Shown one piece after another: positions 1,408 to 59,880 of a stretch of 64,000 bases of DNA (position 1 is the stretch's first letter; the number at the start of each line of letters is the position of its first letter). The stretch comes from Rufibacter latericius. Lineage in GTDB: Bacteria; Bacteroidota; Bacteroidia; Cytophagales; Hymenobacteraceae. The notes under the pieces are model-generated. The model was not told the origin of the DNA. It worked only from the letters and a program-made list of their open reading frames with translations, and searched no databases. The translations under genes and the position numbers were made by a program. The DNA is taken from contig NZ_RJJD01000021.1 of assembly GCF_003721515.1 (NCBI RefSeq), positions 62,001 through 126,000 on the forward strand, written 5' to 3'.

Positions 1408-1451
1408 GCGTGTTTAGGGCCTATTTTGTATAAAAAAGGCCCTAAAAACGC
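1408..1451. repeat. Core hairpin repeat (strong copy)
   Basis: Arms gcgtgtttagggcc and ggccctaaaaacgc pair over 14 bp with one mismatch around an AT-rich centre (tattttgtataaaaaa). It belongs to the intergenic hairpin family described in the findings. Confidence 0.8.
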
Positions 1452-1622
1452 TTTTGCTTTACAATAGAGTAGGTTCTACCCCTCTATTTGTGCCATTGAA
1501 GGCAAACGGGAATTGCAGGGGCAATCCCTGGTGGTTGCCCTTTGGCCTAAGGAATCGTGTTAAGGGGAACCACAAAGAATTGTCCCTACATTATGGTCCA
1601 CTTTGAGAAAAACCAACAAATT

Positions 1623-1660
1623 TGTTTTGACGGTATTTTCCCTAAAAGGGGTTTGAAACG
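1623..1660. repeat. Core hairpin repeat (degenerate copy)
   Basis: It keeps the layout gtttt ... tattttccctaaaa ... gtttgaaac, but the GC block pairs poorly. It lies 105 bp before the coaD start. Confidence 0.4.
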
Positions 1661-1765
1661 GGATAAAAGGAAACATTTCCGCCGAGGGGCGGTAAAGGGA
1701 AAGGATATTTTCAGCATCTTCACCGCTGAAACCAAATCAGATTTCTCCACCTACACCCCTATTGC

Positions 1766-2245
1766 ATGAAGCGCATAGCCATCTTCCCTGGTTCTTTTGA
1801 TCCTTTCACCAACGGACACTATGATGTGGTACAGCGCGGATGCGAGTTATTTGACAACATCATCATTGCCATTGGAAACAACAGCAGCAAGAACCGCTAC
1901 TTTCCGGTGCTGGAGATGGTTTCTACCATTGAAGGGGTGTTCAAAGACAATCCGCAAGTGTGGGTGCAGGCTTACAAGGGCCTTACCGCCGATTTTGCGA
2001 AAGAAGTAGGCGCTAAATTTCTATTGCGCGGGTTGCGCAACACCACTGATTTTGAGTACGAAAACACCATTGCACAAGCGAACCGGCACATAAACCCAGA
2101 GTTGGAGACTGTGTTTTTAATTACCTCTCCTTCCCTGGCGGCTATTAACTCCTCCATCATTCGGGAGATTCACCGGTTTGGCGGAAACGTGCAGGATTTT
2201 ATTCCCTTCCACCTTTCTTCATTGCCTGCAAATAATCCCGGATAA
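1766..2245 (+). CDS. coaD: Phosphopantetheine adenylyltransferase
   Basis: Transfers AMP from ATP to 4'-phosphopantetheine to give dephospho-CoA, the fourth step of CoA synthesis; cytosolic. The 159-residue protein has the nucleotidyltransferase signature GSFDPFTNGH at residues 9-18 (the TxGH site), the substrate-binding segment FLLRGLRN, and the C-terminal motif INSSIIREI equivalent to ISST-x-VR. Length is usual for the family. The last 47 bp overlap the 3' end of the convergent Nudix gene, so the C-terminal tail is encoded antisense to another coding region. Confidence 0.95.
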   Translation: MKRIAIFPGSFDPFTNGHYDVVQRGCELFDNIIIAIGNNSSKNRYFPVLEMVSTIEGVFKDNPQVWVQAYKGLTADFAKEVGAKFLLRGLRNTTDFEYENTIAQANRHINPELETVFLITSPSLAAINSSIIREIHRFGGNVQDFIPFHLSSLPANNPG

Positions 2246-2939
2246 CAAACTGGATAGAGGTGTAAGACTCTGGTAAAACCTCCAGAACTTCGTCTGGGGT
2301 CATGAAGCGGACCTCTTCAATAAATTCTTCGGCCTGGGGTTTCATGTAGGTATCATCCAGGCACTGCATGGTGAACCAGCTGGTTTTCTTCAGGATTTTG
2401 TTTCCCTTGTAGGCGTAGGAGTGCCAGGTGTTGGGCAGTTCGCCGGTAATGGCTACTTTGATATTGCACTCTTCCTCTACCTCGCGCAGGGCACCTAAAT
2501 CGGTTTCCTCAGCCTTCTTGATCTTGCCTTTAGGTAGGTCCCACATGCCCAGGCGGTAAATCATCAGGATTTTTCCGTCCTTGATCACCAGGCCACCAGC
2601 TGCTTTTATGATCTTGAATTGGTCTTTGAGATGGGCAATGAGCTTTTTCTTCTTGTCGGTGACCAGCGTAAGAGACTCCAGTTTCTTGAGTTTCTTAACT
2701 TCCATGAGGCGAACCAAACGGTCAATGAGAGCCGAATCTACATCCCGGATGAGCACATCGCCCACCAAGTCTTTGGAAGTAAACTGATCGTCTTTACCGA
2801 GCACTAAATCGTATTTGTGCTTAAAGATCTTTTCACTGCTTTTTTTAATAATCAGTGGGATGTCGTTGATAAAGACATTCATGAAGTTGTCGCTTAGGTA
2901 GGGCGCGTAAGTAGCTACAAAATAAGAAAGAATTTTCAT
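2199..2939 (-). CDS. Nudix hydrolase with N-terminal extension
   Basis: A 246-residue protein whose C-terminal half is a Nudix domain. The box reads G-KIKKA-E-x7-REVEEE (about residues 137-157), with the usual Glu cluster for Mg2+ binding and diphosphate cleavage. The N-terminal 110 residues (MKILSYFVATYAPYLSDNF...) match no family I can name and precede a predicted helix rich in Lys. The ATG at 2937-2939 is preferred over a TTG three codons upstream. The stop lies inside convergent coaD. The start is 56 bp from pyrE, which is divergent. Substrate unknown; the family cleaves nucleoside diphosphates linked to other groups. Confidence 0.85.
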   Translation of the reverse strand: MKILSYFVATYAPYLSDNFMNVFINDIPLIIKKSSEKIFKHKYDLVLGKDDQFTSKDLVGDVLIRDVDSALIDRLVRLMEVKKLKKLESLTLVTDKKKKLIAHLKDQFKIIKAAGGLVIKDGKILMIYRLGMWDLPKGKIKKAEETDLGALREVEEECNIKVAITGELPNTWHSYAYKGNKILKKTSWFTMQCLDDTYMKPQAEEFIEEVRFMTPDEVLEVLPESYTSIQFVIRDYLQAMKKGGRE

Positions 2940-2995
2940 AGGGCACAAGACGTGCGGCGAAGGAAAAGATTACTACTAATTGTGTAATTTCGCCC

Positions 2996-3634
2996 ATGCC
3001 ACACACAGAAACCGCCGCCCAGATAGCGGCTTACCTCCTTGAAACCCAAGCGGTGCGTCTCCGGCCCGAGCAGCCTTTCAAGTGGAGTTCCGGCTGGAAC
3101 TCCCCCATTTACTGCGACAACCGCGTCACGCTTTCTTTTCCGCATATTCGTTCATTCATTAAAAATGCTTTGGCAAAAGCCGTTCAGGACAATTTTCTAG
3201 GGGTGCAGGCCATTGCCGGGGTAGCCACGGCAGGCATTGCCCAAGGCGCCTTGGTAGCAGATATACTGAACTTGCCGTACTTATACGTACGTCCCGAGCC
3301 AAAAAGCCATGGAATGGGAAACCAAATTGAAGGAAAATTAGAAGCTGGCCAGAGGGTAGTACTCATAGAAGACCTTATTTCTACCGGAGGCTCCTCCTTG
3401 AAAGCCGCTAAAGCCGTACAGGCTGCCGGAGCCGAGGTCATTGGCATGGCCGCCATCTTCACCTACGGGTTCCGCCAAGCCGACGATAACTTCTCCGCCG
3501 CCGGCATCCCCACCGTCTGCCTCAGCCACTACAACGCCCTCCTTGAAACTGCCGCCTCGCAAGGCTACATCTCCCAGGAGGCCATCGCCACCCTGGAGCA
3601 ATGGCGTCAGCAACCCGAGACGTGGGGAGTATAA
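2996..3634 (+). CDS. pyrE: Orotate phosphoribosyltransferase
   Basis: Converts orotate and PRPP to OMP in pyrimidine synthesis. The 212-residue protein carries the PRPP-binding signature VVLIEDLISTGGSS at about residues 121-134 and the N-terminal region FKWSSGWNSPIYCD typical of OPRTases. The ATG lies only 4 bp after a weak -7-like TAATTTCG, so the promoter is uncertain. Downstream is a composite repeat (arms plus core hairpin). Confidence 0.95.
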   Translation: MPHTETAAQIAAYLLETQAVRLRPEQPFKWSSGWNSPIYCDNRVTLSFPHIRSFIKNALAKAVQDNFLGVQAIAGVATAGIAQGALVADILNLPYLYVRPEPKSHGMGNQIEGKLEAGQRVVLIEDLISTGGSSLKAAKAVQAAGAEVIGMAAIFTYGFRQADDNFSAAGIPTVCLSHYNALLETAASQGYISQEAIATLEQWRQQPETWGV

Positions 3635-3809
3635 TTGAATGTTTGGGGGATTGAATGATTGAGGGAATAGGTAAATGAAGAGGATGAATAGAAGGGAATA
3701 TTCGTTTTAAGGCTACTTTTCTAAAAACAGGCTTAGAACGTCCTCTAGTCGTATTTCTTCGTATTTTAAATTCTTCATTCATTCAATCTCTCAATCATTC
3801 ATTCTCTCC
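3634..3809. repeat. Composite repeat A: GAATGA array, core hairpin, TCATTC array
   Basis: The left arm (about 3634-3700) is rich in gaatga/ttgagg units. The centre is the core hairpin at 3703-3740. The right arm (3771-3809) reads as imperfect tcattc units. The right arm's complement matches the left arm at gaatgattgag and again at aatgaag, so the whole is a large imperfect inverted repeat. The right arm ends 2 bp before the ATG of the phosphodiesterase gene. Confidence 0.7.
3703..3740. repeat. Core hairpin repeat (good copy)
   Basis: Arms cgttttaagg and gcttagaacg with the centre ctacttttctaaaaacag. Two mismatches in the arms. Centre of composite repeat A. Confidence 0.65.
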
Positions 3810-3811
3810 TT

Positions 3812-4309
3812 ATGAAAATCGGCCTGCTTTCAGATACGCATAGTTACTTGGATGACCGAATTTTGGCTCTACTGGAGGGCTGTGATGAGATCTGGCATGC
3901 TGGGGATTTCGGGACAGCGGAGGTTTCTGTGCGGTTGGGGCAGTTGGCTCCAATCAAGGGCGTGTATGGCAACATTGATGCCGGGGACGTAAGAGCCTTG
4001 CACCCTAAAAACCTACGGTTCACTTGTGAAGGGTTAGACGTGCTCATGACGCACATTGGTGGGTACCCTGGTAAATACGCTCCCGAGGTGCGTACCATGA
4101 TTAAGGAGAATCCGCCGGGTCTTTTCATCTGCGGACACTCTCATATCCTTAAAGTCATGCAAGACCCAAAGCATGGTAATTTGCTGCACCTCAACCCCGG
4201 AGCAGCCGGGCGCCATGGGTTTCACCAGATGCGCACCATGATGCGTTTTGAGGTAGAAGAAGGGAAAGTACAGAAACTCCAGGCTATTGAGCTTGGCAAA
4301 AGGGCATAA
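3812..4309 (+). CDS. YfcE/MJ0936-type metallophosphoesterase
   Basis: A 165-residue single-domain calcineurin-like phosphoesterase. Metal ligands follow the family order: D8-x-H10, D32 in AGDFG, N54 in GNID, H81 in MTHIGG, H109 and H111 in CGHSH. These proteins hydrolyse phosphodiesters with two bound metals; the physiological substrate is usually unknown. The start codon directly follows the right arm of composite repeat A. The 3' end faces the small basic gene across a hairpin terminator. Confidence 0.9.
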   Translation: MKIGLLSDTHSYLDDRILALLEGCDEIWHAGDFGTAEVSVRLGQLAPIKGVYGNIDAGDVRALHPKNLRFTCEGLDVLMTHIGGYPGKYAPEVRTMIKENPPGLFICGHSHILKVMQDPKHGNLLHLNPGAAGRHGFHQMRTMMRFEVEEGKVQKLQAIELGKRA

Positions 4310-4339
4310 AAAAAGTGTAACCAATGGAGGTTACACTTT
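4308..4339 (-). terminator. Terminator of the small basic-protein gene
   Basis: Perfect 11-bp stem (4312-4322 with 4329-4339, arms aaagtgtaacc and ggttacacttt) and a 6-nt loop. Read on the minus strand, it is followed by a seven-base T run. It also touches the stop of the convergent phosphoesterase gene. Confidence 0.8.
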
Positions 4340-4410
4340 CAACTATCTTGTAGTAAGAGTAATCGCGTACAGTTTGCCGAAAGGCAGTAGGCGAACGAAA
4401 AAACGCAGAA

Positions 4411-4590
4411 TTACTCAGCTGTAGCAACTTCCGCGCTAGCGGCTGGAGCAGAAGTGAAACGAGCTTTCAGCTCTTCAACATCCACGTTCTTGATAACCGG
4501 AGTAGACAACAATTGCTTGATCACGCGTTGCTTGTTGTTCTGTCTTGCTTTATTCTTACGGTCTTTTCTTTTTAATCTAGTAACTGCCAT
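4411..4590 (-). CDS. Small conserved basic protein, 59 residues
   Basis: The frame begins MAVTRLKRKDRKNKAR and ends with an Ala/Glu tail. The first 25 residues hold about 11 Lys/Arg, the middle (VIKQLLSTPVIKNVDVEEL) looks helical, and the tail is acidic. Such very basic short proteins are often ribosome- or nucleic-acid-associated, but I cannot assign a family. It has its own promoter-like site (4615-4646) and its own terminator (4308-4339), which argues strongly that it is a real, independently transcribed gene. No Shine-Dalgarno is present, as expected in this phylum. Confidence 0.78.
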   Translation of the reverse strand: MAVTRLKRKDRKNKARQNNKQRVIKQLLSTPVIKNVDVEELKARFTSAPAASAEVATAE

Positions 4591-4605
4591 CGGTCAATAT
4601 TTAAA

Positions 4606-4635
4606 ATTGAATCGCAAAAGTAAGTTATTACTTTT
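4606..4635 (+). promoter_or_regulatory. Candidate promoter for the threonine aldolase gene
   Basis: ATTG at 4606-4609, 18 bp spacing, then TACTTTTA at 4628-4635, close to the Bacteroidota TTTG/TAnnTTTG consensus. It interleaves with the divergent promoter on the minus strand. Confidence 0.45.
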
Positions 4636-4646
4636 ACATTCTCAAT
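4615..4646 (-). promoter_or_regulatory. Candidate promoter for the small basic protein
   Basis: On the minus strand, ATTG (plus 4643-4646), 20 bp, then an exact TACTTTTG -7 box (plus 4615-4622), 24 bp before the start codon. Confidence 0.55.
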
Positions 4647-4666
4647 AGTTCGGCTTAAAAAAACAC

Positions 4667-5695
4667 ATGAATCCTTTGATTGACCTGCGCAGCGATACTG
4701 TCACCAAACCCTCTCCCGCTATGCTGGAGGCTATGTTTCAGGCCCAGGTGGGCGATGATGTGTACGGGGAAGACCCTACAGTGAATGAGTTACAGGCCTA
4801 CGGAGCCAGTTTGTTTGGGATGGAAGCTGGCCTCTTCTGCCCTTCTGGCACCATGACAAACCAGATCGCCATTAAAATGCACACGCAACCGCTCTCCGAG
4901 GTGGTTTGCGACCGCACTAGCCATATCTATGTCTATGAGGTGGGTGGAATCGCGTTCAACTCGGCGGCCTCTGTGCAGTTGATTGACGGGGTTCGCGGCA
5001 AAGTCACCCCGGAACAGGTAGAAGCCTGCATCAACCCAGACAACATCCACTTCCCGGTGACCAGCCTGGTTTCCCTGGAAAACACCTGCAACAAAGGCGG
5101 AGGCTCTTACTACACCGTTTCTGAAATTGCCGCCATCTCCGAAGTTTGCAGCCGAAACAACATTGCCCTGCACCTAGACGGAGCTCGGGTATTCAATGCC
5201 TTGGTTGCCTCCGGCGATGATGCCCGTGAATACGGCCGGTATTTCAACACTATTTCAATTTGCCTTTCCAAAGGATTGGGAGCCCCGGTGGGTTCTCTGC
5301 TCCTCGGCCCTAAACGACTTATTGAGCAAGCCAAGCGGGTACGTAAGGTGTTGGGCGGTGGTTGGCGGCAGGCCGGTTTTCTGGCTGCGGCCGGGCTCTA
5401 CGCCTTACAAAATAATGTTCAGCGCCTGCAGGTAGACCATGACCGTGCCCGGCAGATTGGGAATGTTTTGCAGGAAACGGGGTATGTCACCGAGGTGATG
5501 CCAGTGGACACCAACATCGTGATTTTCACTTTGGCTCCCCAGGTAAACATGGACGGGTTTCTGACTTATCTGGAAGAAAGAGGAATTCTGGCTTCTTCCT
5601 TCGGTCCGCAGAAGATCCGGATGGTTACCCACCTGGACCTCTCCGAAGAGATGATAACCTCTATTATGAAAGCCATCTCAGAATTTAAGGCCTAA
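4667..5695 (+). CDS. ltaE: Low-specificity L-threonine aldolase family PLP enzyme
   Basis: PLP-dependent fold-type I enzyme of 342 residues, expected to cleave L-threonine/L-allo-threonine to glycine and acetaldehyde. Family hallmarks: DLRSDTVT at residues 6-13, the PLP-pyridine Asp in LHLDGAR (D171), and the Schiff-base Lys in SICLSKGLGAPVGS (K202). Full length for the family. It is monocistronic, between a promoter candidate and a strong terminator. The related beta-eliminating lyases share the fold, but the DLRSDT start favours aldolase. Confidence 0.9.
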   Translation: MNPLIDLRSDTVTKPSPAMLEAMFQAQVGDDVYGEDPTVNELQAYGASLFGMEAGLFCPSGTMTNQIAIKMHTQPLSEVVCDRTSHIYVYEVGGIAFNSAASVQLIDGVRGKVTPEQVEACINPDNIHFPVTSLVSLENTCNKGGGSYYTVSEIAAISEVCSRNNIALHLDGARVFNALVASGDDAREYGRYFNTISICLSKGLGAPVGSLLLGPKRLIEQAKRVRKVLGGGWRQAGFLAAAGLYALQNNVQRLQVDHDRARQIGNVLQETGYVTEVMPVDTNIVIFTLAPQVNMDGFLTYLEERGILASSFGPQKIRMVTHLDLSEEMITSIMKAISEFKA

Positions 5696-5713
5696 GGGTA
5701 TACGCTTTGGTTC

Positions 5714-5760
5714 GCCCCCGTTTAGTGCCCGTTTTCAGAAAACAGGCACTAAACGGGGGC
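5714..5760 (+). terminator. Strong hairpin after threonine aldolase; member of core repeat family
   Basis: Perfect 16-bp stem (5714-5729 with 5745-5760; arms gcccccgtttagtgcc and ggcactaaacgggggc) around cgttttcagaaaaca, followed by ttttctttt. It has the core-repeat layout (gttta...GC block...gttttc-agaaaac...), so here a repeat copy appears to serve as a terminator. Confidence 0.8.
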
Positions 5761-5894
5761 TTTTCTTTTAAAAGCAGAGCGAAAAAGGATCTCCACGTCT
5801 TAAAGTTTCCGCCTTACAGGCAACCCTTTATATAAAGGAATCATCTTTCATGTAAAGCCCGGTAGCCTTCTTCAGAGGGAGGGTGAAAAACCAG

Positions 5895-5933
5895 CTCGTT
5901 TTACTCCTCTTTTTAGGAAAACAGAGCGGAAAC
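5895..5933. repeat. Core hairpin repeat (degenerate copy)
   Basis: cgttttactcctct ... aggaaaacag ... gcggaaac keeps the outer gttt/aaac pairing and the T/A centre. The GC block is weak. Confidence 0.4.
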
Positions 5934-5944
5934 TATATAAAGGA

Positions 5945-5974
5945 TTTGCTATCTTTTATGCTTCTTTACTTTTG
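5945..5974 (+). promoter_or_regulatory. Promoter candidate for the protease-CBM48 pair
   Basis: TTTG at 5945-5948, 18 bp spacing, and TACTTTTG at 5967-5974. This is one of the best Bacteroidota-type promoters in the window, 67 bp upstream of the first start codon. Confidence 0.6.
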
Positions 5975-6040
5975 CAACACCGTTCGCGATTCCTCTCCTT
6001 TACTAGATTATAACCAAGCCCTTAGACACAGCTTTTCCTT

Positions 6041-7075
6041 ATGCTTTTTTCCATCCGTTCTATGTTGGTGAGGTGCTTAGGAATGCTGCTGCTTCTTTCG
6101 GGCAGCTTTCTGCTGGAAGCCAAACCCCTTGGGGCTAAGAAACCTGAAAGGACTCGCCAACTTTCTTTACCACCTCTTCGGCAATCGCTTTCCTTGGTAT
6201 CCTTGCCCAACTTTTTCGCGGGCAATGATTCGGTTTCAAGTGTGTTGCCTTTTACCAGAGTGGGAAACCTGATTATGATCCAGGCGCGGGCTGACACCAC
6301 CGTGGGCAGCTTTATCCTGGATACCGGGGCGCAGGGACTGGTGCTCAACATCACCTATTTCCGGGATTACCCGAAGATGAAGGACTCTCAGGCCCAAAGG
6401 ACCAGTGTGACGGGAGCCTCCCCCGAGGTAGTGAAAACAATCGTGCGGAGTTTTTCCTTGGGAAACCTGCAGTATTCCAGAATAAAGGCAGATTTGGTGA
6501 ACCTGGGGCACTTAGAGAACACTAAAAAGGTTAAGATACTGGGGCTGTTGGGAATGGAGTTGTTCAGACGGTGTGAAATGATAATTGATTATGAGCGCAG
6601 CCTCATTTTCCTGCACCAGATTGGAAAGAAAGAAAGCGAAACCTACCGAAGCAGCCAGTTGCAGGACACATTGGGGTACAACACCATCCCCATCGATCTG
6701 AAGGATAACCGGATTATAGTTCACACCGAGATGGTTGGCAAGAAAATTGACTTCATCATTGACTGCGGGGCCGAAACCAATATTCTGGACAGCCGTCTGC
6801 CCAATAAGATCTTTGAAAACGTAGTTATAACAGGAAGAGTCATGTTGACCGGAACCGGCAACCGGAAGATTGAGGCACTGCGCGGAGACCTTAAAAACCT
6901 ACGGTTCGGGAATCAGGACATCGCCTCGTTGCCCGTTGTGATTACCAGCTTGGAAAACACTTGTTTTTCTTATGACGGGTGCATTAACGGCGTGCTGGGC
7001 TTTGATTTCCTTTCGGTGAATGATAACAAAATAGGCTTTAATTTTGTGAAGCGAGAATTGTATATATGGAAATAA
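6041..7075 (+). CDS. Secreted retropepsin-like (clan AA) aspartic protease homologue
   Basis: A 344-residue protein with an N-terminal signal peptide (LLLLSGSFLLEA, about residues 14-26) and two tandem aspartic-protease half domains. The first has FILDTGAQG (DTG at 94-96) and the closing GLLGMELF near 168-175. The second has FIIDCGAETN (DCG at 241-243) and GVLGFDFL near the C-terminus. The single-chain two-lobed form is the Asp_protease_2 arrangement. Cys replaces Thr in the second catalytic triplet, which may alter activity. The stop overlaps the start of the CBM48-repeat gene by 10 bp, so the two are almost surely co-translated. Substrate unknown. Confidence 0.82.
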   Translation: MLFSIRSMLVRCLGMLLLLSGSFLLEAKPLGAKKPERTRQLSLPPLRQSLSLVSLPNFFAGNDSVSSVLPFTRVGNLIMIQARADTTVGSFILDTGAQGLVLNITYFRDYPKMKDSQAQRTSVTGASPEVVKTIVRSFSLGNLQYSRIKADLVNLGHLENTKKVKILGLLGMELFRRCEMIIDYERSLIFLHQIGKKESETYRSSQLQDTLGYNTIPIDLKDNRIIVHTEMVGKKIDFIIDCGAETNILDSRLPNKIFENVVITGRVMLTGTGNRKIEALRGDLKNLRFGNQDIASLPVVITSLENTCFSYDGCINGVLGFDFLSVNDNKIGFNFVKRELYIWK

Positions 7076-8544: not shown

Positions 8545-8570
8545 ATTTGTGATGGAACAAGCCTGACTAC

Positions 8571-8609: not shown

Positions 8610-8675
8610 ATCTGAAGGTTAGCTTTTGCCTTGGTCATCCTGCAAAGGCAAACATTTTCCCCGCCGTTCCAATAA

Positions 8676-10337
<1,662 letters not shown>

Positions 10338-17767: not shown

Positions 17768-17808
17768 CACTTCCTTTTCAAGGGTGTTTTTGAGAAATCA
17801 CCTCGAAA

Positions 17809-17875
17809 GCAGAACTCTTTCTACAAGAAAAGCCGGCCTTTGTGGGACCGGCTTTTCTTGTAGAAAGAGTTCTGC
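17809..17875. terminator. Bidirectional terminator, perfect 28-bp stem
   Basis: Bases 17809-17836 pair without mismatch with 17848-17875 across an 11-nt loop. The stem contains aaaagccgg/ccggctttt, so both directions have the A-stem-T layout. It lies between the convergent lepB and ung genes. The stem is unusually long for an intrinsic terminator. Confidence 0.85.
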
Positions 17876-17887
17876 TATTTCTTCATG

Positions 17888-17926
17888 CTGTTTTAGGATC
17901 GTTTTCAAGTAAATAGGCTTAAAACA
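17888..17926. repeat. Core hairpin repeat (moderate copy)
   Basis: ctgttttaggatc ... gttttcaagtaaat ... aggcttaaaac. The outer gttttaNg/Ncttaaaac pairs; the GC block is degenerate. Confidence 0.5.
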
Positions 17927-19901: not shown

Positions 19902-19951
19902 AAAATCTGCTTTGGGCCTGATTTACTTAAAACAGGCCCAAAGCAGATTTT
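19902..19951. terminator. Bidirectional hairpin; strong member of core repeat family
   Basis: Perfect 19-bp stem (19902-19920 with 19933-19951; inner part ctttgggcctg/caggcccaaag) around atttacttaaaa. It fills the gap between the convergent methyltransferase and kdsA genes and is flanked by A/T runs on both sides, so it can act as a two-way terminator. Confidence 0.8.
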
Positions 19952-20853: not shown

Positions 20854-20894
20854 CCCCTTTTTAAGGCGTTTTTGGCAAAACGGCATTGAAAGGG
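20854..20894. repeat. Core hairpin repeat (moderate copy)
   Basis: ccctttttaaggc ... gtttttggcaaaac ... ggcattgaaaggg. Outer cccttt/aaaggg pairs perfectly. Between kdsA and the upstream methyltransferase gene. Confidence 0.5.
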
Positions 20895-22658: not shown

Positions 22659-22702
22659 AAAAAAGAGCCCCGAAACGTACCAGCGTTTCGGGGCTCTTTT
22701 TT
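22659..22702 (+). terminator. Terminator of the coiled-coil protein gene
   Basis: Perfect 19-bp stem (22659-22677 with 22684-22702; arms around gagccccgaaacg/cgtttcggggctc), 6-nt loop, followed by T residues. Confidence 0.9.
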
Positions 22703-22703: not shown

Positions 22704-22898
22704 AGAGAGTGATTGAATGGTTGAGAGAATGAAGGAATTAGAGAATGAAGGAATGATAGAAATACAAAAAGGCTCTTAGTCCCTGTTTTAAGGCTGTGTT
22801 CAGAAAAGAAGGCAAAAAACATTTTTCGGTTCTTCCCTCTCCTTTCTCATTCACTCCATCATTCATTCATTCATTCATTCATTCATTCTCTCATTACT
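22704..22898. repeat. Composite repeat B with (ATTC)7 microsatellite
   Basis: The left arm (22704-22763) is made of degenerate gaatga/ttgaga units. The centre is a core repeat (22783-22820). The right arm (about 22845-22898) is of tcattc type and includes a perfect (ATTC)7 run at 22861-22888. Same architecture as composite repeat A. It occupies the gap between two convergent genes and ends at the cphA stop codon. Confidence 0.75.
22783..22820. repeat. Core hairpin repeat (moderate copy)
   Basis: ctgttttaaggctg ... tgttcagaaaag ... aaggcaaaaaac. Centre of composite repeat B. Outer T and A runs pair; the GC block is imperfect. Confidence 0.5.
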
Positions 22899-27121: not shown

Positions 27122-27154
27122 AAAAAAGCCTGCTTAATGAAAGCAGGCTTTTTT
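27122..27154 (-). terminator. Terminator of tRNA-Cys
   Basis: Perfect 14-bp stem (27122-27135 with 27141-27154; arms aaaaaagcctgctt and aagcaggctttttt), loop aatga, giving a T run on the minus strand 6 bp after the tRNA end. Confidence 0.85.
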
Positions 27155-29478: not shown

Positions 29479-29522
29479 AACCGTTTCAGGCCTATTTCCA
29501 GAAAAGAAGGCTTGAAACGGTT
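29479..29522. repeat. Core hairpin repeat (strong copy)
   Basis: Arms aaccgtttcaggcc and ggcttgaaacggtt pair over 14 bp with one mismatch, around tatttccagaaaagaa. The outer sequence (tttcag/ttgaaa) differs from other copies while pairing is kept. Confidence 0.75.
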
Positions 29523-29594: not shown

Positions 29595-29636
29595 CCTTGT
29601 TTAAGGCTTGTTTTCCAGAAAACAACCTAGAAACGG
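29595..29636. repeat. Core hairpin repeat (moderate copy)
   Basis: ccttgtttaagg ... cttgttttccagaaaacaa ... cctagaaacgg. The inner ttgttttccagaaaacaa is a perfect palindrome-like hairpin; outer arms carry mismatches. Confidence 0.6.
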
Positions 29637-34024: not shown

Positions 34025-34031
34025 CCTGTAA

Positions 34032-34074
34032 AGAAATGGCCCCGCCTGAATACCAGGCGGGGCCATTTCTTTTA
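34032..34074 (+). terminator. Terminator of the serine-hydrolase gene
   Basis: Perfect 17-bp stem (34032-34048 with 34054-34070; core ggccccgcctg/caggcggggcc), loop aatac, then tttt. Confidence 0.9.
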
Positions 34075-40935: not shown

Positions 40936-40977
40936 AGAGCCCCTGCAAGAACTAAATCACGTTCCTGCAGGGGCTCT
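40936..40977. terminator. Bidirectional terminator between SusCD operon and Spm fusion
   Basis: 17-bp stem with one mismatch (40936-40952 with 40961-40977; core gcccctgca/tgcaggggc), 8-nt loop, with A-rich sequence on the left side and gcgtttt on the right. Confidence 0.75.
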
Positions 40978-42252: not shown

Positions 42253-42290
42253 GCGAGATGAATGAGTGAATGGATGATAGGCAGAATGAG
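42253..42290. repeat. GAATGA array (composite repeat D, one arm)
   Basis: gatgaatgagtgaatggatgat then aatgagg on the plus strand. In the sense of the Spm-fusion gene it is a tcattc array ending 5 bp before the ATG. No core hairpin is adjacent; two core copies lie about 200 bp away beyond a terminator. Confidence 0.5.
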
Positions 42291-44753: not shown

Positions 44754-44789
44754 GTTTCGGGGCCATTTTCTTGAAAGCAGCCCCGAAAC
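44754..44789. repeat. Core hairpin repeat (strong copy)
   Basis: gtttcggggc pairs perfectly with gccccgaaac over 10 bp, centre cattttcttgaaagca. The GC block differs from other copies at several paired positions. Between the M14 peptidase and DUF1611 genes. Confidence 0.75.
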
Positions 44790-52231: not shown

Positions 52232-52269
52232 CTTGTTTTAGGCCAGTTTTCAGGAAAACAGTTCCAAAG
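52232..52269. repeat. Core hairpin repeat (moderate copy)
   Basis: cttgttttaggcca ... gttttcaggaaaac ... agttccaaag. The centre gttttcaggaaaac is self-complementary; arms are degenerate. Confidence 0.5.
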
Positions 52270-52337
52270 CACCTTTCGTAATTGTGGCCTTGAAGGCCGT
52301 GGAATAAACCAAACAGATGCCTAGCCCGTGGGCTTCT

Positions 52338-52373
52338 GTTTAGAGGCTGTTTTACAGAAATTAGGTTAAAAAC
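52338..52373. repeat. Core hairpin repeat (good copy)
   Basis: gtttagaggctg ... ttttacagaaa ... ttaggttaaaaac. Extended by outer cccgtg (52325-52330) and cacggg (52373-52378), which pair perfectly. Second of two copies between tamB and ftsX. Confidence 0.55.
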
Positions 52374-53329: not shown

Positions 53330-53343
53330 AGACATTATCCTTT

Positions 53344-55118: not shown

Positions 55119-56022
55119 CCAATTTCCTTCCCTTTCGCATGCCGTGGTAACTTCCGGCACGTTTGATGGAGTCCATGTGGGCCACCAGAAAATCCTTTCC
55201 AGACTCATAGAAGCGGCTCGCCAGGACCACGGCCAGAGTGTGGTGATTTCCTACTGGCCTCATCCCCGCACCGTACTGCACCCTGAAGACGATTCACTGC
55301 GCCTGCTTTCCACCATTGAAGAACGGATTGAGGCCCTCCGGGCTTTTGGGGTTGACTACCTGTTGCTTCTTCCGTTTACCAGGGAATTTGCTCAATTCTC
55401 GTCTGAAGAGTACATCCAGCAGATTTTGATCGAAGCCATCCAGACCAAAAAACTGGTGATCGGGTATGACCATCGGTTCGGGAAAAACCGTGAGGGAGGC
55501 TTTGATTACCTGCAAAAGAATTCCTCCCGCTATGGCTTTACCGTGGAAGAGATTCCGCGTCAGGACATTGACGCAGTGGGAGTGAGTTCCAGCAAAATCA
55601 GAACTGCCCTTGAACACGGCGATGTGGCAACCGCAGCCCGCTATCTGGCCAGACCTTACTCGCTCACCGGAACCGTAGTGAAAGGCAAACAACTGGGTCG
55701 TACCTTAGGCTATCCTACTGCCAACGTAGAACCCCAGGAAAAACTGAAGTTGGTACCGGCCCAGGGCATTTACGCCGTTCAGGTTAAAACTGCTTCCGGT
55801 ACCTTCAAGGGCATGCTGAGCATCGGCACCAATCCTACCGTGCAGGGCACTCGCCAAACCATTGAGGTTAATCTCTTTGATTTCTCCGGTGACCTGTACG
55901 ACCAAGAAATCACCCTTTTTTTTATCTCCTACCTCCGACCGGAACAAATGTTCGATGGGTTGGAAGCGCTTACCCAGCAACTCCACTTGGACAAGGTCGC
56001 CGCCTTACAGGTGTTAGGATAA
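55096..56022 (+). CDS. ribF: Bifunctional riboflavin kinase/FMN adenylyltransferase
   Basis: Makes FMN and then FAD from riboflavin. 308 residues. The N-terminal FAD synthetase half has the nucleotidyltransferase site GTFDGVHVGHQKIL (about 20-33) and VIGYDHRFGKNREG; SSSKIRTALEHGD follows at about 157-169. The C-terminal riboflavin kinase half has GRTLGYPTANVEP and GIYAV. The start lies within truB, as often found for this pair. Confidence 0.95.
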   Translation: MIVIRELSQFPSLSHAVVTSGTFDGVHVGHQKILSRLIEAARQDHGQSVVISYWPHPRTVLHPEDDSLRLLSTIEERIEALRAFGVDYLLLLPFTREFAQFSSEEYIQQILIEAIQTKKLVIGYDHRFGKNREGGFDYLQKNSSRYGFTVEEIPRQDIDAVGVSSSKIRTALEHGDVATAARYLARPYSLTGTVVKGKQLGRTLGYPTANVEPQEKLKLVPAQGIYAVQVKTASGTFKGMLSIGTNPTVQGTRQTIEVNLFDFSGDLYDQEITLFFISYLRPEQMFDGLEALTQQLHLDKVAALQVLG

Positions 56023-56118
56023 ATCAGGTAAATCCGTAACTTCACCTCGGGCTTTCACGAAAAAGACAGTAGGGAAGCAAGCCTGCCATTGGTTTGTCAT
56101 CTAATACAAGACTGTGCT

Positions 56119-56523
56119 ATGTTCAGAAGCATTCTGGCGGTTTTAGGCGGAATCGCCATTGGCGTATTTACCATTAGCCTGGTGGAATACATGAGCCATC
56201 AGCTCTATCCCCTGCTGGTGACCGGGAACCCGGCAAACCCCGATGTTGTGGCGGCTACTTTGAACAACGCGCCCACAGGGGCCTTGCTGATGGTTCTGCT
56301 GGGGTATGCCCTGGGTTCTTTCTTCGGGGGCATGGTAGCAGGCAGGGTGGCCCATTTCAGACGGATTCTACATGCGGTTTTAGTAGGTGGATTTTTGCTA
56401 GCTGCTGGAATTGCTAACCTATACGCCTTCTCGCACCCGCTTTGGTTTACGGTCGTCTCGCTGATCATTTATATACCTATGGCTTACTTTGGAGGCATAA
56501 TGTCGGTGCGGCGAATTCCCTAA
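56119..56523 (+). CDS. Small integral membrane protein, unknown
   Basis: 134 residues from ATG 56119 (a TTG 30 bp upstream is less likely). Four hydrophobic segments: ILAVLGGIAIGVFTISLV, LLMVLLGYALGSFFGGMVAG, AVLVGGFLLAAGIANLY and FTVVSLIIYIPMAYFGGIM. Glycine-rich (G-x3-G) helices suggest close packing. I recognise no named family and no functional neighbour. Confidence 0.75.
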   Translation: MFRSILAVLGGIAIGVFTISLVEYMSHQLYPLLVTGNPANPDVVAATLNNAPTGALLMVLLGYALGSFFGGMVAGRVAHFRRILHAVLVGGFLLAAGIANLYAFSHPLWFTVVSLIIYIPMAYFGGIMSVRRIP

Positions 56524-56531
56524 ATCTGTTC

Positions 56532-56567
56532 TATTTCAAGCCTAGCTTTAGGAAAATGGCCTAAAAA
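56532..56567. repeat. Core hairpin repeat (moderate copy)
   Basis: tatttcaagcctag ... ctttaggaaaat ... ggcctaaaaa. Partial arm pairing. Upstream of scoA. Confidence 0.45.
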
Positions 56568-56628
56568 CCCAATCCCAGTTCATTTAACCAAATTATCGAT
56601 CCATACACTCCACGTACTTTCTACTTCT

Positions 56629-57330
56629 ATGATAAACAAAGTGGTACCAGATGCTGCCTCCGCGTGTCAGGATATTCCCGATGGCGCTACCCTCATGCTG
56701 GGAGGTTTCGGCTTATGCGGGATTCCGGAAAATTCCATTCAGGAGATTTTACGCCGGGGCATCAAAGGCCTTACCTGTATTTCCAACAACGCCGGCGTAG
56801 ACGATTTTGGCATCGGGCTGCTGTTACAGCGGCGGCAGGTTAAAAAAATGATCTCCAGCTACGTGGGCGAAAACGCCGAGTTTGAACGCCAACTGCTTTC
56901 CGGCGAACTAGAGGTTGAATTGATTCCACAAGGAACGCTGGCCGAGCGCATTAGGGCAGGTGGGGCAGGCATTCCCGCGTTTTTCACCCCGGCCGGCTAC
57001 GGCACTGAAGTAGGTGAAGGAAAAGAAAGCCGCGAGTTTGACGGAAAGATGTACCTCATGGAAACCTGGCTCAAAGCCGATTTTGCTCTGGTGAAAGCCT
57101 GGAAAGGCGACACGGCCGGAAACCTCATCTTCAAAGGAACCGCCCGCAACTTCAACCCCATGATGGCCACTGCCGGCAAGATCACCATCGCCGAGGTGGA
57201 GGAACTGGTACCCGTGGGCGAACTGGATCCTAACATGATCCATACCCCCGGCATCTACGTCCAGCGCATTTTCCAGGGCAAAAACTACGAAAAACGCATT
57301 GAACAGAGAACCGTTCGGGCTTCTTCCTAA
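56629..57330 (+). CDS. scoA: 3-oxoacid CoA-transferase subunit A
   Basis: Alpha subunit of succinyl-CoA:3-ketoacid (acetoacetate) CoA transferase, 233 residues. Features: [16 protein letters not shown] (CoA-transferase family I signature, about 23-38), [16 protein letters not shown], and [12 protein letters not shown]. The B subunit follows by 23 bp. With it, the enzyme moves CoA between succinyl-CoA and acetoacetate in ketone-body use. Confidence 0.94.
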
Positions 57331-57353
57331 TTCACCTCACAAAAAAGAAAATA

Positions 57354-58010
57354 ATGGCTTTAGATAAACACGGCATTGCCAAGAGAATAGCGCAGGAACT
57401 GCAGGAAGGATACTATGTGAACTTAGGCATCGGGATTCCTACCCTGGTGGCCAATTACATTCCCGAGGGGATGAACGTGGTGCTTCAGAGCGAGAACGGA
57501 TTGCTGGGCATGGGACCCTTCCCCACCGAAGACGAAGTGGACCCTGACATGATCAACGCCGGGAAACAAACCGTCACCACCTTACCCGGCTCCGCCCTAT
57601 TCAGCTCCGCGGAAAGCTTTGGCATGATCCGGGGTGAGCACGTGCAGCTAACGGTGCTTGGGGCCATGGAAGTATCGGAGCGCGGCGACATTGCCAACTG
57701 GAAAATTCCGGGTAAAATGGTAAAAGGCATGGGCGGAGCGATGGACTTGGTGGCCTCTGCCAAGAACATCATCGTGGCCATGCAGCATACCTCCAAAGAC
57801 GGTCAATCCAAACTTCTGAAAAACTGCAGCCTTCCTATTACCGGCCTAAAATGCGTGAAGAAGATTGTCACCGATCTGGCGGTGCTGGAAGTTACCGTGA
57901 ATGGTTTCAAGTTGCTGGAACGGGCCCCGGGCGTAACTGTGGAGCAGATTCAAGCTGCCACCGAGGGAAAATTAACCATAGAAGGTGAAATCCCTGAAAT
58001 TAATGTGTGA
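57354..58010 (+). CDS. scoB: 3-oxoacid CoA-transferase subunit B
   Basis: Beta subunit of the same enzyme, 218 residues. The catalytic Glu that forms the glutamyl-CoA thioester is in QSENGLLGMGP (E47). Also YVNLGIGIPTLVANYIP and GAMEVSERGDIANWKIPGKMVKGMGGAMDL, whose parts are typical of the family. Complete; operon with scoA. Confidence 0.94.
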   Translation: MALDKHGIAKRIAQELQEGYYVNLGIGIPTLVANYIPEGMNVVLQSENGLLGMGPFPTEDEVDPDMINAGKQTVTTLPGSALFSSAESFGMIRGEHVQLTVLGAMEVSERGDIANWKIPGKMVKGMGGAMDLVASAKNIIVAMQHTSKDGQSKLLKNCSLPITGLKCVKKIVTDLAVLEVTVNGFKLLERAPGVTVEQIQAATEGKLTIEGEIPEINV

Positions 58011-58055
58011 CGTTTGGTGTTAAGAAAAGGCAAAAAGCCAATAATCAAGTTTGTG

Positions 58056-58097
58056 TTTTGCTTTTTAAGCCCGCTTTAGATAAAAAAAGGCAAAACC
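58056..58097. repeat. Core hairpin repeat (good copy)
   Basis: gttttgc pairs perfectly with gcaaaac; between them ttttaagcccgctttagataaaa keeps the T/A centre. Between scoB and the GNAT-nitrilase gene. Confidence 0.55.
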
Positions 58098-58245
58098 CGT
58101 ATACCTTCAACTTAACCGAGCACCTTACCAGTTGTAACCCTGTCAGATTGCTTTTCTCGCTGTTAATCCATTAGAAATAGAAGGACATCGTCTTCTAATT
58201 TCGGACCAAGAGGATGGAAAGCAATTCAGATGAATCCGAATCAAA

Positions 58246-59799
58246 ATGAGTGAAAATACCGAACATAAGTTAATCCTTCGTCAGCTTACCACCTCAGACT
58301 ACAAGGAAGTAAAACAAATCATGGAGCTGGTGTACACCACCATTGGAGGCTCCTGGACCCAGAAAGAATTCTCGTCCCTGCTCAAACGTTTCCCCGAAGG
58401 CCAGCTCTGTATTGAGGACAAAGGCCGGGTGGTGGCCGCGGCCCTCAGCATCATTGTCAATTACCCTGAGTACGGCGACAAGCACACCTACGAACAAATA
58501 ACCGGCGGAGGTAAATTCGACACCCACGACAATGATGGCGATACCCTCTACGGCGTAGACGTGTTTGTACACCCAGAATACCGCAACCTACGTCTGGGCC
58601 GTCGTCTGTACGATGCCCGGAAAGAGCTTTGCGAAAACCTTAACCTGCGGGGCATTATCCTGGGGGGCCGTATTCCTGGCTACAAAGAGCATTCAGACAA
58701 GATGACGCCCGGCAAGTACATTGAGCAGGTCCGTAACAAGGAGATCTATGATCCTATCCTTACCTTCCAGCTCAGCAACGGCTTCCACGTCCGGAAAATC
58801 ATTAGAGGGTACATGCCCCAGGACAAGGAATCAAAGGCCTATGCCTCTTTGCTGGAGTGGATCAACGTCTACTATGAGGAAAAGGAAACCCTGGTGGGTG
58901 GTACTAAGCGCGTTGTCCGGATTGGGGTAATCCAGTGGCAGATGCGCCAGATGACCTCCCTGGAGGATTTTGAGCAGCAGGTGGAGTTCTTCGTGGATAC
59001 CGTGAGTTCCTACAAAGCGGACTTAGTGATGTTCCCCGAGTTCTTCAATGCGCCCCTCATGGCCCTTTCCGATGAGAAATCGCCCTCGGCGGCCATCCGG
59101 AAACTAGCGGAATATACAGATGGTATCCGGGAGCGGCTTATTCACCTGGCGCTGTCTTACAACATCAACATCATCGCGGGCAGCATGCCGGAGTATATTG
59201 AGAACAAGCTGCACAACGTGAGCTACCTCTGCCGCCGCGACGGAACGTATGACAAACAGTACAAGCTGCACGTAACCCCCGATGAATCTCAGTATTGGGG
59301 GATGCGCGGAGGAAACAAGCTGAGCATTTTTGACACCGATTTCGGGAAAGTGGGTCTTTTGATCTGTTACGATGTGGAGTTCCCGGAACTGGCTCGGATG
59401 CTGTCTGACCAGGACATGAAAATCCTCTTCGTTCCGTACCAGACCGATACCAAAAACGCTTACCTGCGGGTACGCCATTGCGCCCAGGCCCGGGCCATTG
59501 AAAACGAGTGCTACGTGGCCATCACGGGCAGCGTAGGGAACTTGCCAAGGGTAGAGAACATGGACATCCAGTACTCCCAATCGGCGGTATTCTCGCCTTC
59601 AGACGTGGCTTTCCCCCACGATGCCATCATCGCGGAGGCTACTCCTAATACCGAGATGACCCTCATTGCCGACCTGGACCTGGACTTGCTCAAAGACCTG
59701 AACACCACCGGTAGCGTTAGAAACCTGAGAGACCGCCGTAAAGATCTGTACAACCTGAGCTGGCTGCATCAGAAAGAAGATGATTTAACCGAGATTTAA
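58246..59799 (+). CDS. GNAT acetyltransferase-nitrilase superfamily fusion
   Basis: A 517-residue two-domain protein. The N-terminal GNAT domain (about 8-215) includes GVDVFVHPEYRNLRLGRRLY, the acetyl-CoA-binding turn. The C-terminal carbon-nitrogen hydrolase domain (about 224-505) has the catalytic triad Glu in MFPEFF (E265), Lys in KQYKLHV (K340) and Cys in LLICYDVEFPE (C374). This fused form recurs in several phyla and is annotated only generally; an amidase with an acylation step on the same molecule is likely, substrate unknown. Monocistronic. Confidence 0.88.
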   Translation: MSENTEHKLILRQLTTSDYKEVKQIMELVYTTIGGSWTQKEFSSLLKRFPEGQLCIEDKGRVVAAALSIIVNYPEYGDKHTYEQITGGGKFDTHDNDGDTLYGVDVFVHPEYRNLRLGRRLYDARKELCENLNLRGIILGGRIPGYKEHSDKMTPGKYIEQVRNKEIYDPILTFQLSNGFHVRKIIRGYMPQDKESKAYASLLEWINVYYEEKETLVGGTKRVVRIGVIQWQMRQMTSLEDFEQQVEFFVDTVSSYKADLVMFPEFFNAPLMALSDEKSPSAAIRKLAEYTDGIRERLIHLALSYNINIIAGSMPEYIENKLHNVSYLCRRDGTYDKQYKLHVTPDESQYWGMRGGNKLSIFDTDFGKVGLLICYDVEFPELARMLSDQDMKILFVPYQTDTKNAYLRVRHCAQARAIENECYVAITGSVGNLPRVENMDIQYSQSAVFSPSDVAFPHDAIIAEATPNTEMTLIADLDLDLLKDLNTTGSVRNLRDRRKDLYNLSWLHQKEDDLTEI

Positions 59800-59801
59800 A
59801 T

Positions 59802-59861
59802 AAAACAGCCCTAAAACAGAAAAGCCGGTTTATACCGGCTTTTCTGTTTTAGGGCTGTTTT
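59802..59861. terminator. Bidirectional terminator, perfect 28-bp stem
   Basis: Bases 59802-59829 pair without mismatch with 59834-59861 across loop ttat. The apex aaaagccggt/accggctttt resembles the terminator at 17809-17875. Its outer part gttttagggctgtttt matches the left arm of the core repeat family, and a degenerate core continues beyond it. Between convergent genes. Confidence 0.85.
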
Positions 59862-59880
59862 GCCAAAAAAGCTTTGTTTT
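59844..59880. repeat. Core hairpin repeat overlapping the terminator (degenerate)
   Basis: ctgttttagggctg ... ttttgccaaaaaa ... gctttgtttt. The left arm forms the right half of the terminator stem; the right arm is decayed. Confidence 0.4.

Follow-up and report, generated by a model that had tools for sequence, protein, structure and literature searches.

What are the short imperfect palindromes that recur between the genes of this stretch of a Rufibacter (Hymenobacteraceae) genome, and what might read them? The stretch analyzed, 64,000 nucleotides in length and referred to here as the window, was scanned with a matrix that had been re-estimated on a different contig of the same genome from a seed that included copies found in the window. 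There were 36 matches of at least 18 bits, and none was found in 30 first-order Markov shuffles of the window. By our own gene calls, intergenic DNA makes up 13% of the window, yet it held 29 of the 36 matches; genes were called by a simple ORF caller, so the label "genic" given to the other 7 and all distances to starts are approximate. These counts bear out the roughly 27 copies claimed by an earlier note on this DNA, and the copies that it placed at 1408, 5714, 19902, 29479, and 44754 match its description, while its statement that none lies inside genes was too strong, as 3 of the 29 matches of at least 22 bits were still genic (44491, 46701, and 48249). Its remark that it knew of no described family of this form agrees with the literature searched, in which none was found, and with Rfam 15 at gathering scores, which gave a single match in the window, to a tRNA, and none to the palindromes. 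The copies and associated features are listed in Table 1.

Table 1. Palindrome copies and associated features in the window (scores in bits are those of the matrix)
Position	Feature	Basis
1412..1447	Family copy inside longer stem (1406-1453), 36 nt past stop codon	31 bits, 14/17 pairs; palindrome scan
1624..1659	Family copy, intergenic tandem	30 bits
3704..3739	Family copy, intergenic tandem	36 bits, 13 pairs
5714..5760	35-bp-form copy with 3-nt centre, tipping a longer GC stem that has a T-rich stretch after it; also terminator-like	27 bits, sequence, palindrome scan
5898..5933	Family copy, imperfect	27 bits
8573..8608	Family copy, 28 nt past stop codon	34 bits
12420..12455	Degenerate family copy	21 bits
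12592..12627	Family copy	25 bits
12700..12735	Degenerate family copy	24 bits
17775..17810	Convergent-gap copy of the family, 7 nt past left stop codon	26 bits
17808-17876	Ordinary terminator between copies 17775..17810 and 17890..17925	palindrome scan
17890..17925	Convergent-gap copy of the family, 7 nt from right stop codon	35 bits
19909..19944	Near-perfect copy in longer stem (19902-19951), convergent gap; position kept in 3/3 species compared (window included)	37 bits, 16 pairs
20857..20892	Degenerate copy; aligned G063 copy nearly perfect	23 bits
22641..22676	Weak match, overlaps terminator at 22659-22702	18 bits
22785..22820	Family copy, convergent gap	31 bits
27275..27310	Degenerate copy	21 bits
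29483..29518	Family copy, position kept in G037	31 bits
29599..29634	Family copy, 25 nt past stop codon, position kept in G037	39 bits
31770..31805	Family copy, 3 nt past stop codon; position kept in 4/4 species compared	32 bits
34441..34476	Family copy, convergent gap; position kept in 3/3 species compared	34 bits
40867..40902	Family copy, convergent gap	30 bits
42476..42511	Family copy in variable gap; 5/12 species without copy there	33 bits
44754..44789	Family copy, 10 nt past stop codon	38 bits
46514..46549	Family copy, 11 nt past tsaD stop codon; gap holds a copy in 14/14 species	31 bits
52235..52270	Family copy, 4 nt past tamB (TamB-like) stop codon; one position group, 9/13 species	38 bits
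52338..52373	Family copy, 56 nt upstream of ftsX-like gene	38 bits
56533..56568	Family copy, 9 nt past stop codon; 3-17 nt past that stop in 12/12 species	25 bits
58062..58097	Degenerate copy; position kept in 3/3 species compared	23 bits
59782..59817	Copy overlapping gene end, left half degenerate	30 bits
59846..59881	Copy with degenerate right half; everted partner of 59782..59817	16 bits

The palindrome family is real and far larger than first reported. The high density held when the search was extended to more of the genome and to related species: matrix scans of four species found 138 to 163 intergenic copies per 400 kb (overall density in their blocks, 0.38 to 0.57/kb), and pattern searches found 335 to 1,779 matches per genome in all 16 Rufibacter genomes searched. 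In 94 genomes of other Hymenobacteraceae genera, there were 0 to 2 pattern matches per genome; in 10 loci (214 kb) of the sister genus Pontibacter, none of the 27 palindromes listed had, by eye, the four-tract form described below, and the genome pattern survey agrees. The family is dispersed and mainly intergenic, as first described, with densities across the four species of 0.02 to 0.09/kb in genes and of 2.9 to 3.8/kb, 1.6 to 2.2/kb, and 0.7 to 1.6/kb in convergent, tandem, and divergent gaps, respectively. Among tandem copies, 38 to 49% began no more than 30 nt past a stop codon, and 27 to 53% of divergent gaps of at least 60 bp also contained copies. The longest element-free stretches in the window's own genome (G000) and in G045 were genomic islands that carry integrase or defence genes. 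The asymmetric centre was oriented nearly at random with respect to transcription (45:37 in G048 and 17:21 in G017) and to the contig strand, and a gene- or strand-oriented motif was therefore rejected.

The unit is a 36-bp dyad in which four T/A tracts, two per half, stand around a 4-nt centre of nearly invariant length. The profile of 183 G000 copies reads CYGTTTT-N4-CYGTTTT-N4-AAAACRG-N4-AAAACRG, which replaces the layout of one arm and a GC block given originally. The two 16-nt halves were exactly 4 nt apart in 161 of 161 half-site pairs in G048, 143 of 144 in G017, and 114 of 117 in G045, a fixed spacing of the kind looked for in a protein-binding dyad; it was looser in G000, where 147 of 232 pairs had 4 nt, 34 had 3, and 27 had 5. 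With the centre lengthened by 2 nt as a control, only 0 to 3 matches were found in the 16 genomes of the genus, versus the hundreds or more per genome at the correct spacing. Between G000 and G063, 73 of 76 copies aligned well and 62 were still detected at the aligned place, with identities of 0.90 in the tracts, 0.585 in the linkers, 0.495 in the centre, and 0.638 in the flanks. Strong conservation between related species is thus restricted to the tracts, together with the spacing; the linkers, whose positions should pair, diverge between these two genomes like the flanks, and pairing as the main constraint is not supported. Self-complementary dinucleotides are avoided in the centre (5 of 64 and 7 of 64, versus 17 to 18 expected). 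An insertion sequence with half-site ends was also considered and set aside, as no such pairing was apparent, by eye, among the 28 isolated half-sites listed from 1.2 Mb.

Across the genus, many but not all copies have kept their positions, well in excess of what chance would give. Where a shared gap had a copy in both species, positions matched in 44 of 61 cases, versus 16.7 under random placement, and in two further species pairs, they matched in 10 of 15 and 10 of 19, versus 4.6 and 4.3; over all shared gaps, matched copies numbered 45 of 67, 11 of 22, and 10 of 24, or about two fifths to two thirds. The comparison across the genus covered 15 site groups. The copy at 44754..44789 kept its position in 11 of the 12 species whose neighbouring genes are conserved, its arms showing compensated changes, and the two position groups of the copy at 52338..52373 comprise 10 of 13 species, 2 more fitting either there or at 52235..52270. 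G037 has both 29483..29518 and 29599..29634, and G063 and G006 each have a single copy that fits either. Consensus sequences differ among the four species sampled in depth, and in the sharp dialects, the median information per site was 48 to 58 bits. Copies were 0.78 to 0.83 alike within 4 of the 16 species (G017, G022, G048, and G060), versus 0.66 for orthologous copies, and 0.55 to 0.74 alike within the remaining 12; G045 was bimodal, with many near-identical copies. The orthologous G022 copy shared 186 of the 495 departures from the G017 dialect, versus 71 expected, indicating vertical descent.

Whether the arms pair, and in which molecule, bears on two alternatives. The earlier note had read paired arm changes as selection on pairing, as RNA or as a DNA cruciform. 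Their excess over chance stands: compensatory double changes numbered 30 versus 16.3 and 30 versus 16.6 expected in two species pairs (0 of 500 permutations each), and covariation, a modest excess of the kind sought in structured RNA, was found at position pairs 5/32, 6/31, and 7/30 in G000 and 6/31, 9/28, and 12/25 in G048. The signal is weak, however, as the majority of copies are imperfect and many positions in the arms vary independently of each other within species (Watson-Crick pairs among arm pairs 5 to 13, 659 versus 660 expected in G017 and 685 versus 670 in G022). A cruciform or a single-strand hairpin formed at replication, with pairing selected or restored by template-switch mutation, would account for the compensatory changes, the covarying pairs, the strand symmetry, and the outward extension of stems by at least 8 bp in 81 of 590 copies, such that about 1 in 7 tips a longer hairpin; this DNA secondary structure is nevertheless distinctly unlikely, given the independent arm positions, the almost invariant centre length in three species, and the conservation of the T/A tracts, which are poor pairs, while GC linkers drift. 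A hairpin acting in RNA at transcript 3' ends, as a terminator or a stabilizer, would fit the copies that begin soon past stop codons, the highest density in convergent gaps, and the T- or A-tract beyond the stem in 25 of the 81 long-stem copies. It would also be expected to tolerate G.U over A.C on the transcribed strand, whereas sense-strand mismatches in 334 tandem copies showed no wobble asymmetry (G.T:A.C, 334:323; between species, 57:53) and intrinsic terminators taken from the same blocks, the positive control, did (38:16), which speaks against RNA as the level of selection. TTTT lay downstream of 41 of the 334 tandem copies and AAAA, the mirrored control, upstream of 46, in keeping with the earlier view that most copies are not plain terminators; intrinsic terminators at gene ends occurred independently of the element (Fisher p, 0.23 to 0.88), and copies are also present in divergent gaps. 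An intrinsic-terminator family was rejected on these T-tract counts, the wobble test, and the independence at gene ends, and we hold any 3'-end RNA role to be very unlikely. Bidirectional intrinsic terminators are likewise palindromic and richest in convergent gaps, and a minority of copies overlaps one or has a T-tract right after the hairpin, but most copies lack the T-tract, and the family shows no G.T excess. Because G.T equals A.C, unlike in terminators, and most copies lack a T-tract, the element behaves as a DNA dyad, unlike a family of terminators or RNA hairpins. A systematic survey of 40 bacterial genomes (PMC2267715) found stem-loop sequence families, proposed as possibly RNA-acting, that share the intergenic location and the capacity to fold as stem-loops; for the present element, the wobble test and the spacing point to DNA.

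Two further alternatives concern how such a family might arise and persist. A REP- or MITE-like palindrome, spread by a transposase (RAYT or another) and now largely fixed, with the dialects as copy waves or gene conversion, would be a short intergenic palindrome of very high copy number, near-random orientation, and lineage-specific sequence, like REP/BIME and RAYT-linked REPs, and would account for the near-identical G045 copies and the homogeneous families of the four species named above. Between distant species, 11 of 22 G048 copies were unmatched in G000 and 14 of 24 G045 copies in G048 (10 of 21 and 8 of 14, respectively, among near-consensus copies), and 30 RAYT loci held 65 copies in 97 kb (0.67/kb), somewhat above the overall density. 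RAYT-linked REPs, however, comprise GTAG and CGTC families (PMC3733652), and neither end tag was present in the motif and flank profile of the 183 G000 copies or, inside the 36 bp, in three other dialects; the four-tract dyad and its fixed spacing differ from REPs as well. A RAYT gene flanked by the element itself, as expected of such REPs, was not borne out: the repeat at the sole RAYT match of G000 is, by eye, a different one, and a RAYT appears dispensable, since the single-contig genome of G017, whose family is homogeneous, lacks any PF01797 match. Among the 82 G022 and 81 G017 copies with both flanks found in the other genome, there was no clean empty site (1 of these 163 testable copies was ambiguous; flanks were not found for 75 of 157 and 65 of 146 copies, respectively), and no clean insertion polymorphism was seen in the two species pairs compared, although distant species differ in many copies. 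The well-aligned copies of G000 and G063, the 29 of 38 near-consensus G045 copies that sit at G000 copy positions, and the other positions kept across the genus also disfavour mobility, as do the element-free islands. A RAYT/REP origin is thus not needed, despite a slightly raised density of copies near RAYTs, and we consider the mobile explanation unlikely. A DNA uptake signal comparable to those of Neisseriaceae and Pasteurellaceae (DUS or USS), maintained through biased transformation and divided into species dialects, would match the genus restriction, the strand symmetry, the hundreds to over a thousand copies, and dialects that differ partly at the same places; DUS of the Neisseriaceae (PMC3630211) have dialects and inverted pairs at terminators, and they resemble the element in copy number and in the copies that double as terminators. 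By the same account, genes commonly contain single copies of the DUS, whereas the unit here is a 36-bp dyad, rare in genes and rarely reduced to one half-site: genic half-sites of at least 13 bits numbered 3, 5, and 2 in G045, G048, and G017, versus 0, 3, and 6 in the reversed control and 250 to 327 within full dyads. Outside a modest excess in G000 (49 versus 17), half-sites were rarely single, DUS/USS-like single sites were rejected, and an uptake function seems hardly probable at all.

The reading that we put first, at just short of an even chance, is that the copies are duplex-DNA sites for a putative protein. Each would be a dyad-symmetric site of 36 to 40 bp in double-stranded DNA, with a half-site of two CYGTTTT tract boxes 11 bp apart, and therefore on the same helix face, and with the second half mirrored across a 4-bp centre. 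The putative DNA-binding protein would be abundant and probably dimeric or tetrameric, its units reading the four boxes, and may occupy hundreds to over a thousand sites per genome, densest between convergent genes and soon past stops, and the occupied sites might mark or insulate gene boundaries or organize the nucleoid. The sites would have spread mainly in the Rufibacter ancestor and largely stayed put since then; purifying selection would keep tracts and spacing while linkers drift, lineages may have drifted to their own dialects along with their protein, and a minority of copies would have become part of longer hairpins, including some terminators. Operator and nucleoid-protein site families, such as parS, matS, and Fis sites, are comparable in being fixed-spacing dyads that a dimer could read, but the Rufibacter sites are longer, many more, and mostly confined to gaps, and their reader is putative.

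Several observations count against protein sites. A usual regulator site needs far less information than the 48 to 58 bits of the sharp dialects, switching dialect across sites this numerous would be hard to achieve stepwise, and the avoidance of self-complementary centre dinucleotides is left unexplained; the looser G000 spacing and the only partly matched copies of shared gaps also weigh against them. Compensatory changes at drifting positions and copy-specific stem extensions are unexpected for a simple dimer site, suggesting some pairing or palindrome-making mutation process.

A bolder proposal, possible but doubtful, is a genome-wide gene-boundary code of the genus's own, in which hundreds to over a thousand putative protein-read dyads per genome, at largely ancestral positions, would have changed their sequence without moving in several lineages, along with the specificity of the reader. 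If true, such a code would give bacteria an equivalent of insulators or chromatin boundaries, and its natural dialects could be used for testing. The usual explanations for palindromic repeats between genes are mobile REPs, terminators, and RNA hairpins, and the element fails the tests applied for each; we know of no described family that combines confinement to one genus, conservation of many positions, dialects by species, and tract-box constraint. If protein-read, the many sites per genome in 16 species with natural dialects would let the co-evolution of a regulator and its site set be measured and would reveal how Rufibacter marks gene ends. One place in the window departs from the common form: 59802, described originally as a copy that seemed to double as a terminator, is instead an ordinary terminator hairpin between two everted half-sites, the right half of 59782..59817 pairing with the left half of 59846..59881 around the terminator (palindrome 59802-59861).

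The dispersed copies described in the earlier note were recovered with a 36-position matrix seeded with 18 window copies and iterated over 464 kb of the same Rufibacter latericius genome: re-estimated on another contig of that genome, C17, it gave 36 matches of at least 18 bits in the window and none in 30 Markov shuffles of it. Over the 464 kb, 292 matches reached at least 13 bits, versus 0 to 4 in column-shuffled controls. The profile was CY-GTTTTARGGCYG-TTTTCC-NGAAAA-CAGSCYTAAAAC-RG, that is, two CYGTTTT boxes 11 bp apart followed by their mirror image. The restriction to intergenic DNA claimed previously was true of most copies, with 29 of the 36 window matches intergenic and 7 genic. At ≥20 bits in four species, convergent gaps held 2.9 to 3.8 copies/kb, tandem gaps 1.6 to 2.2, divergent gaps 0.7 to 1.6, and genes 0.02 to 0.09. 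In tandem gaps of ≥200 bp, 109 of 203 copies lay ≤100 nt past a stop and 39 lay ≤100 nt ahead of a start, a placement that fits function or simple tolerance alike.

The genus carrying the family is Rufibacter. A first search pattern found 774 copies in R. latericius and 32 to 2008 in 15 congeners, 0 to 1 per genome elsewhere in the family Hymenobacteraceae (104 genomes, five other genera), and 0 to 3 in other families of the order (177 genomes). Because one congener, G048, has a different dialect (species-specific consensus), the survey was repeated with a dialect-neutral pattern, which gave 335 to 1779 matches in each of the 16 genus genomes, 0 to 2 in other genera of the Hymenobacteraceae (94 genomes), and 0 to 3 across the phylum (197 further genomes). 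Such pattern counts miss degenerate copies; the matrix found 138 to 163 intergenic copies per 400 kb in R. latericius, R. immobilis, G048, and G017, which would extrapolate to roughly 1500 to 2300 per genome.

The anatomy of the family, in both spacing and strand symmetry, speaks for duplex DNA. Among half-site pairs within 0 to 29 nt of each other, exactly 4 nt separated the 16-nt halves in 161/161 pairs of G048, 143/144 of G017, and 114/117 of R. immobilis. The copies of R. latericius were more degenerate and their spacing looser (4 nt in 147/232 pairs, 3 nt in 34, and 5 nt in 27, where the same copy may in some cases have been read in two frames). A pattern with two bases added at the centre had only 0 to 3 matches per genus genome. 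In 334 tandem copies, sense-strand mismatches were balanced (G.T 334, A.C 323), and Watson-Crick pairs of one species appeared in the other as G.T 57 times and A.C 53 times between the congeners G017 and G022. In contrast, the terminator-like stems of the four ~400-kb blocks, of which 144 remained once 43 overlapping a copy had been left out, had 38 G.T, 16 A.C, and 11 other mismatches. RNA as the level of pairing, one of the two possibilities proposed earlier, is thus not supported. The accompanying statement that most copies are not plain terminators was borne out by this lack of a G.T excess and by the tracts, since TTTT occurred ≤14 nt downstream of 41 of the 334 copies and mirrored AAAA upstream of 46. 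Terminators and copies occurred independently at gene ends.

The boxes were also the most constrained part of the element. Between R. latericius and G063 (median protein identity, 90%), 73 of 76 copies were alignable and 62 were still detected at the aligned place; identity was 0.90 in tract columns, 0.585 in linkers, 0.495 at the centre, and 0.638 in flanking intergenic DNA. Between G017 and G022, identity was 0.93 to 0.97 in tract columns 3, 4, 14, and 15, lower in column 16 (0.72), 0.65 to 0.88 in linker columns 6 to 13, and 0.66 in flanks. In 115 aligned pairs, 186 of 495 departures from the dialect consensus were common to the orthologous copy, versus 71 expected, which indicates vertical inheritance.

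The paired arm changes noted earlier were confirmed between species, as a modest excess, and only partly within them. Compensatory doubles at arm pairs 5 to 13 numbered 30 in R. latericius/G063 (16.3 expected, SD 3.6; 64 of 73 pairs passing the tract filter) and 30 in G017/G022 (16.6 expected, SD 3.6; 104 position-matched pairs), and 0 of 500 permutations reached either count. The within-species signal was uneven: R. latericius showed it strongly at 5/32 and 6/31, G048 at 6/31, 9/28, and 12/25, and R. immobilis at 7/30, with no clear covariation in G017 arms. A further stem of ≥8 bp lay outside the motif in 81 of 590 copies, and beyond this stem 25 of the 81 had a T or A tract. Together, these doubles and outer stems suggest that pairing, or a palindrome-restoring mutation process, is superimposed on the duplex signature. 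A self-complementary central dinucleotide was avoided in four species (0.04 to 0.19 observed versus 0.27 to 0.44 expected). Central bases were self-complementary in 5 and 7 of 64 copies in R. latericius/G063, although they had changed in more than half of the orthologous copies, and in 20 and 21 of 104 in G017/G022 (36 and 40 expected). The element therefore has an orientation, which was about random relative to genes and strand.

Around tsaD, tamB, and ftsX, the distance from a copy to a given gene was similar in species throughout the genus. In shared gaps with a copy in both species, positions matched in 44 of 61 cases, versus 16.7 (SD 3.5) under random placement, and in 10/15 and 10/19 in two further species pairs. 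Over all shared gaps, 45/67 copies matched for R. immobilis versus R. latericius, 11/22 for G048 versus R. latericius, and 10/24 for R. immobilis versus G048, implying gain or loss over longer times. Orthologous copies were 66.0% identical and non-orthologous copies 62.1% (262 orthologous pairs; 15 site groups of ≥3 species), and within-species likeness was 78 to 83% in G017, G022, G048, and G060 and 55 to 74% in the other 12 species. Half-sites read GTTTTARGGCTGTTTTCC in R. latericius, GTTTAGGGGCTGTTTTTC in R. immobilis, GTTTTCGGGCTCATTTCC in G048, and GTTTTTGGCCTGTTTTCT in G017. Near-consensus copies often stood where the other species had a copy (R. immobilis versus R. latericius, 29/38 in shared gaps; G048 versus R. 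latericius, 11/21; R. immobilis versus G048, 6/14), so the dialect appears to have been rewritten in place at many sites.

Most simply, a putative DNA-binding protein reading four boxes on the duplex accounts for the fixed spacing and strand symmetry, the constraint on the boxes, the conserved positions, and the dialects, and we give it close to an even chance; boundary, roadblock, or nucleoid packing are candidate roles. That the family forms a genus-wide code of gene-boundary marks, putative protein-read dyads rewritten in place in several lineages, is a more doubtful proposition. A mobile repeat, REP- or MITE-like, gains weight at the expense of the protein-site model and of the gene-boundary code from the many copies unmatched in distant species and from a slightly higher density at 30 loci of REP-associated transposases (RAYTs; 0.67 copies/kb versus 0.38 to 0.57 in the four blocks). 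Yet the family shows little sign of movement, and we consider this origin unlikely. In the flank test, which covered the about half of all copies with locatable flanks, an interval of ≥34 nt was present for 71/82 G022 copies in G017 and for 74/81 G017 copies in G022; by eye, 17 of the 18 shorter intervals still held a shifted copy and one could not be judged, and there was no clean empty site. By alignment, 18 copies faced a gap in the other genome, and G022 held 10 of the 12 that were listed; the flank test did not show them as insertions. RAYTs do not account for the family: the only PF01797 match of R. latericius has, by eye, its own repeat, and G017 has no match. No such repeat was found in open-licence literature on Rufibacter repeats or palindromes (by title) or on Hymenobacter intergenic inverted repeats, and a description may exist elsewhere.

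The largest element-free stretches of the R. latericius and R. immobilis blocks, without a copy at ≥20 bits, were islands, and absence of the element may thus mark recently acquired DNA. By eye, the window also has intergenic repeats of another kind, built of GAATGA/TCATTC-type units.

Sites, neighbouring repeats, and islands (plain positions refer to the window; C17 is an R. latericius contig of genome G000, and C10 belongs to R. immobilis, G045)
Position	Feature	Remark
56533	Copy site	Kept in 12/12 species
44754	Copy site	Kept in 11/12 species
46514	Gap	Holds a copy in 14/14 species
42476	Gap	Variable; no copy in 5/12 species
3635-3811	Long imperfect inverted repeat of GAATGA/TCATTC-type short units	Contains copy at 3704; by eye
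22720-22898	Long imperfect inverted repeat of the same units	Contains copy at 22785; by eye
near 42253-42290	One-sided stretch of the same units	By eye
59782-59881	Terminator hairpin with an everted family half-site on each side	Half-sites lengthen its stem
17808-17876, 22659-22702, 27122-27154, 34030-34072, 40936-40977	Strong palindromes of the kind found in ordinary terminators	Separate from the family
G000:C17 around 380803-381054 (L001)	Sole PF01797 (RAYT-like) match, with an inverted repeat of its own around it	Repeat of CAAGTTTGAGCGAAGCGGTAACTTG type; no relation to the family
G045:C10 about 514280 (L137 near 14280)	Near-perfect copy with 3-nt centre	Among the few spacing exceptions there
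G000:C17:205989-225650 (L012-L013)	Largest element-free stretch of the block; island with phage integrase	10/14 genes scanned
G045:C10 about 408526-450111 (L132-L134)	Element-free island with type I restriction, TIR/SEFIR, and Schlafen-helicase genes	10/30 genes scanned
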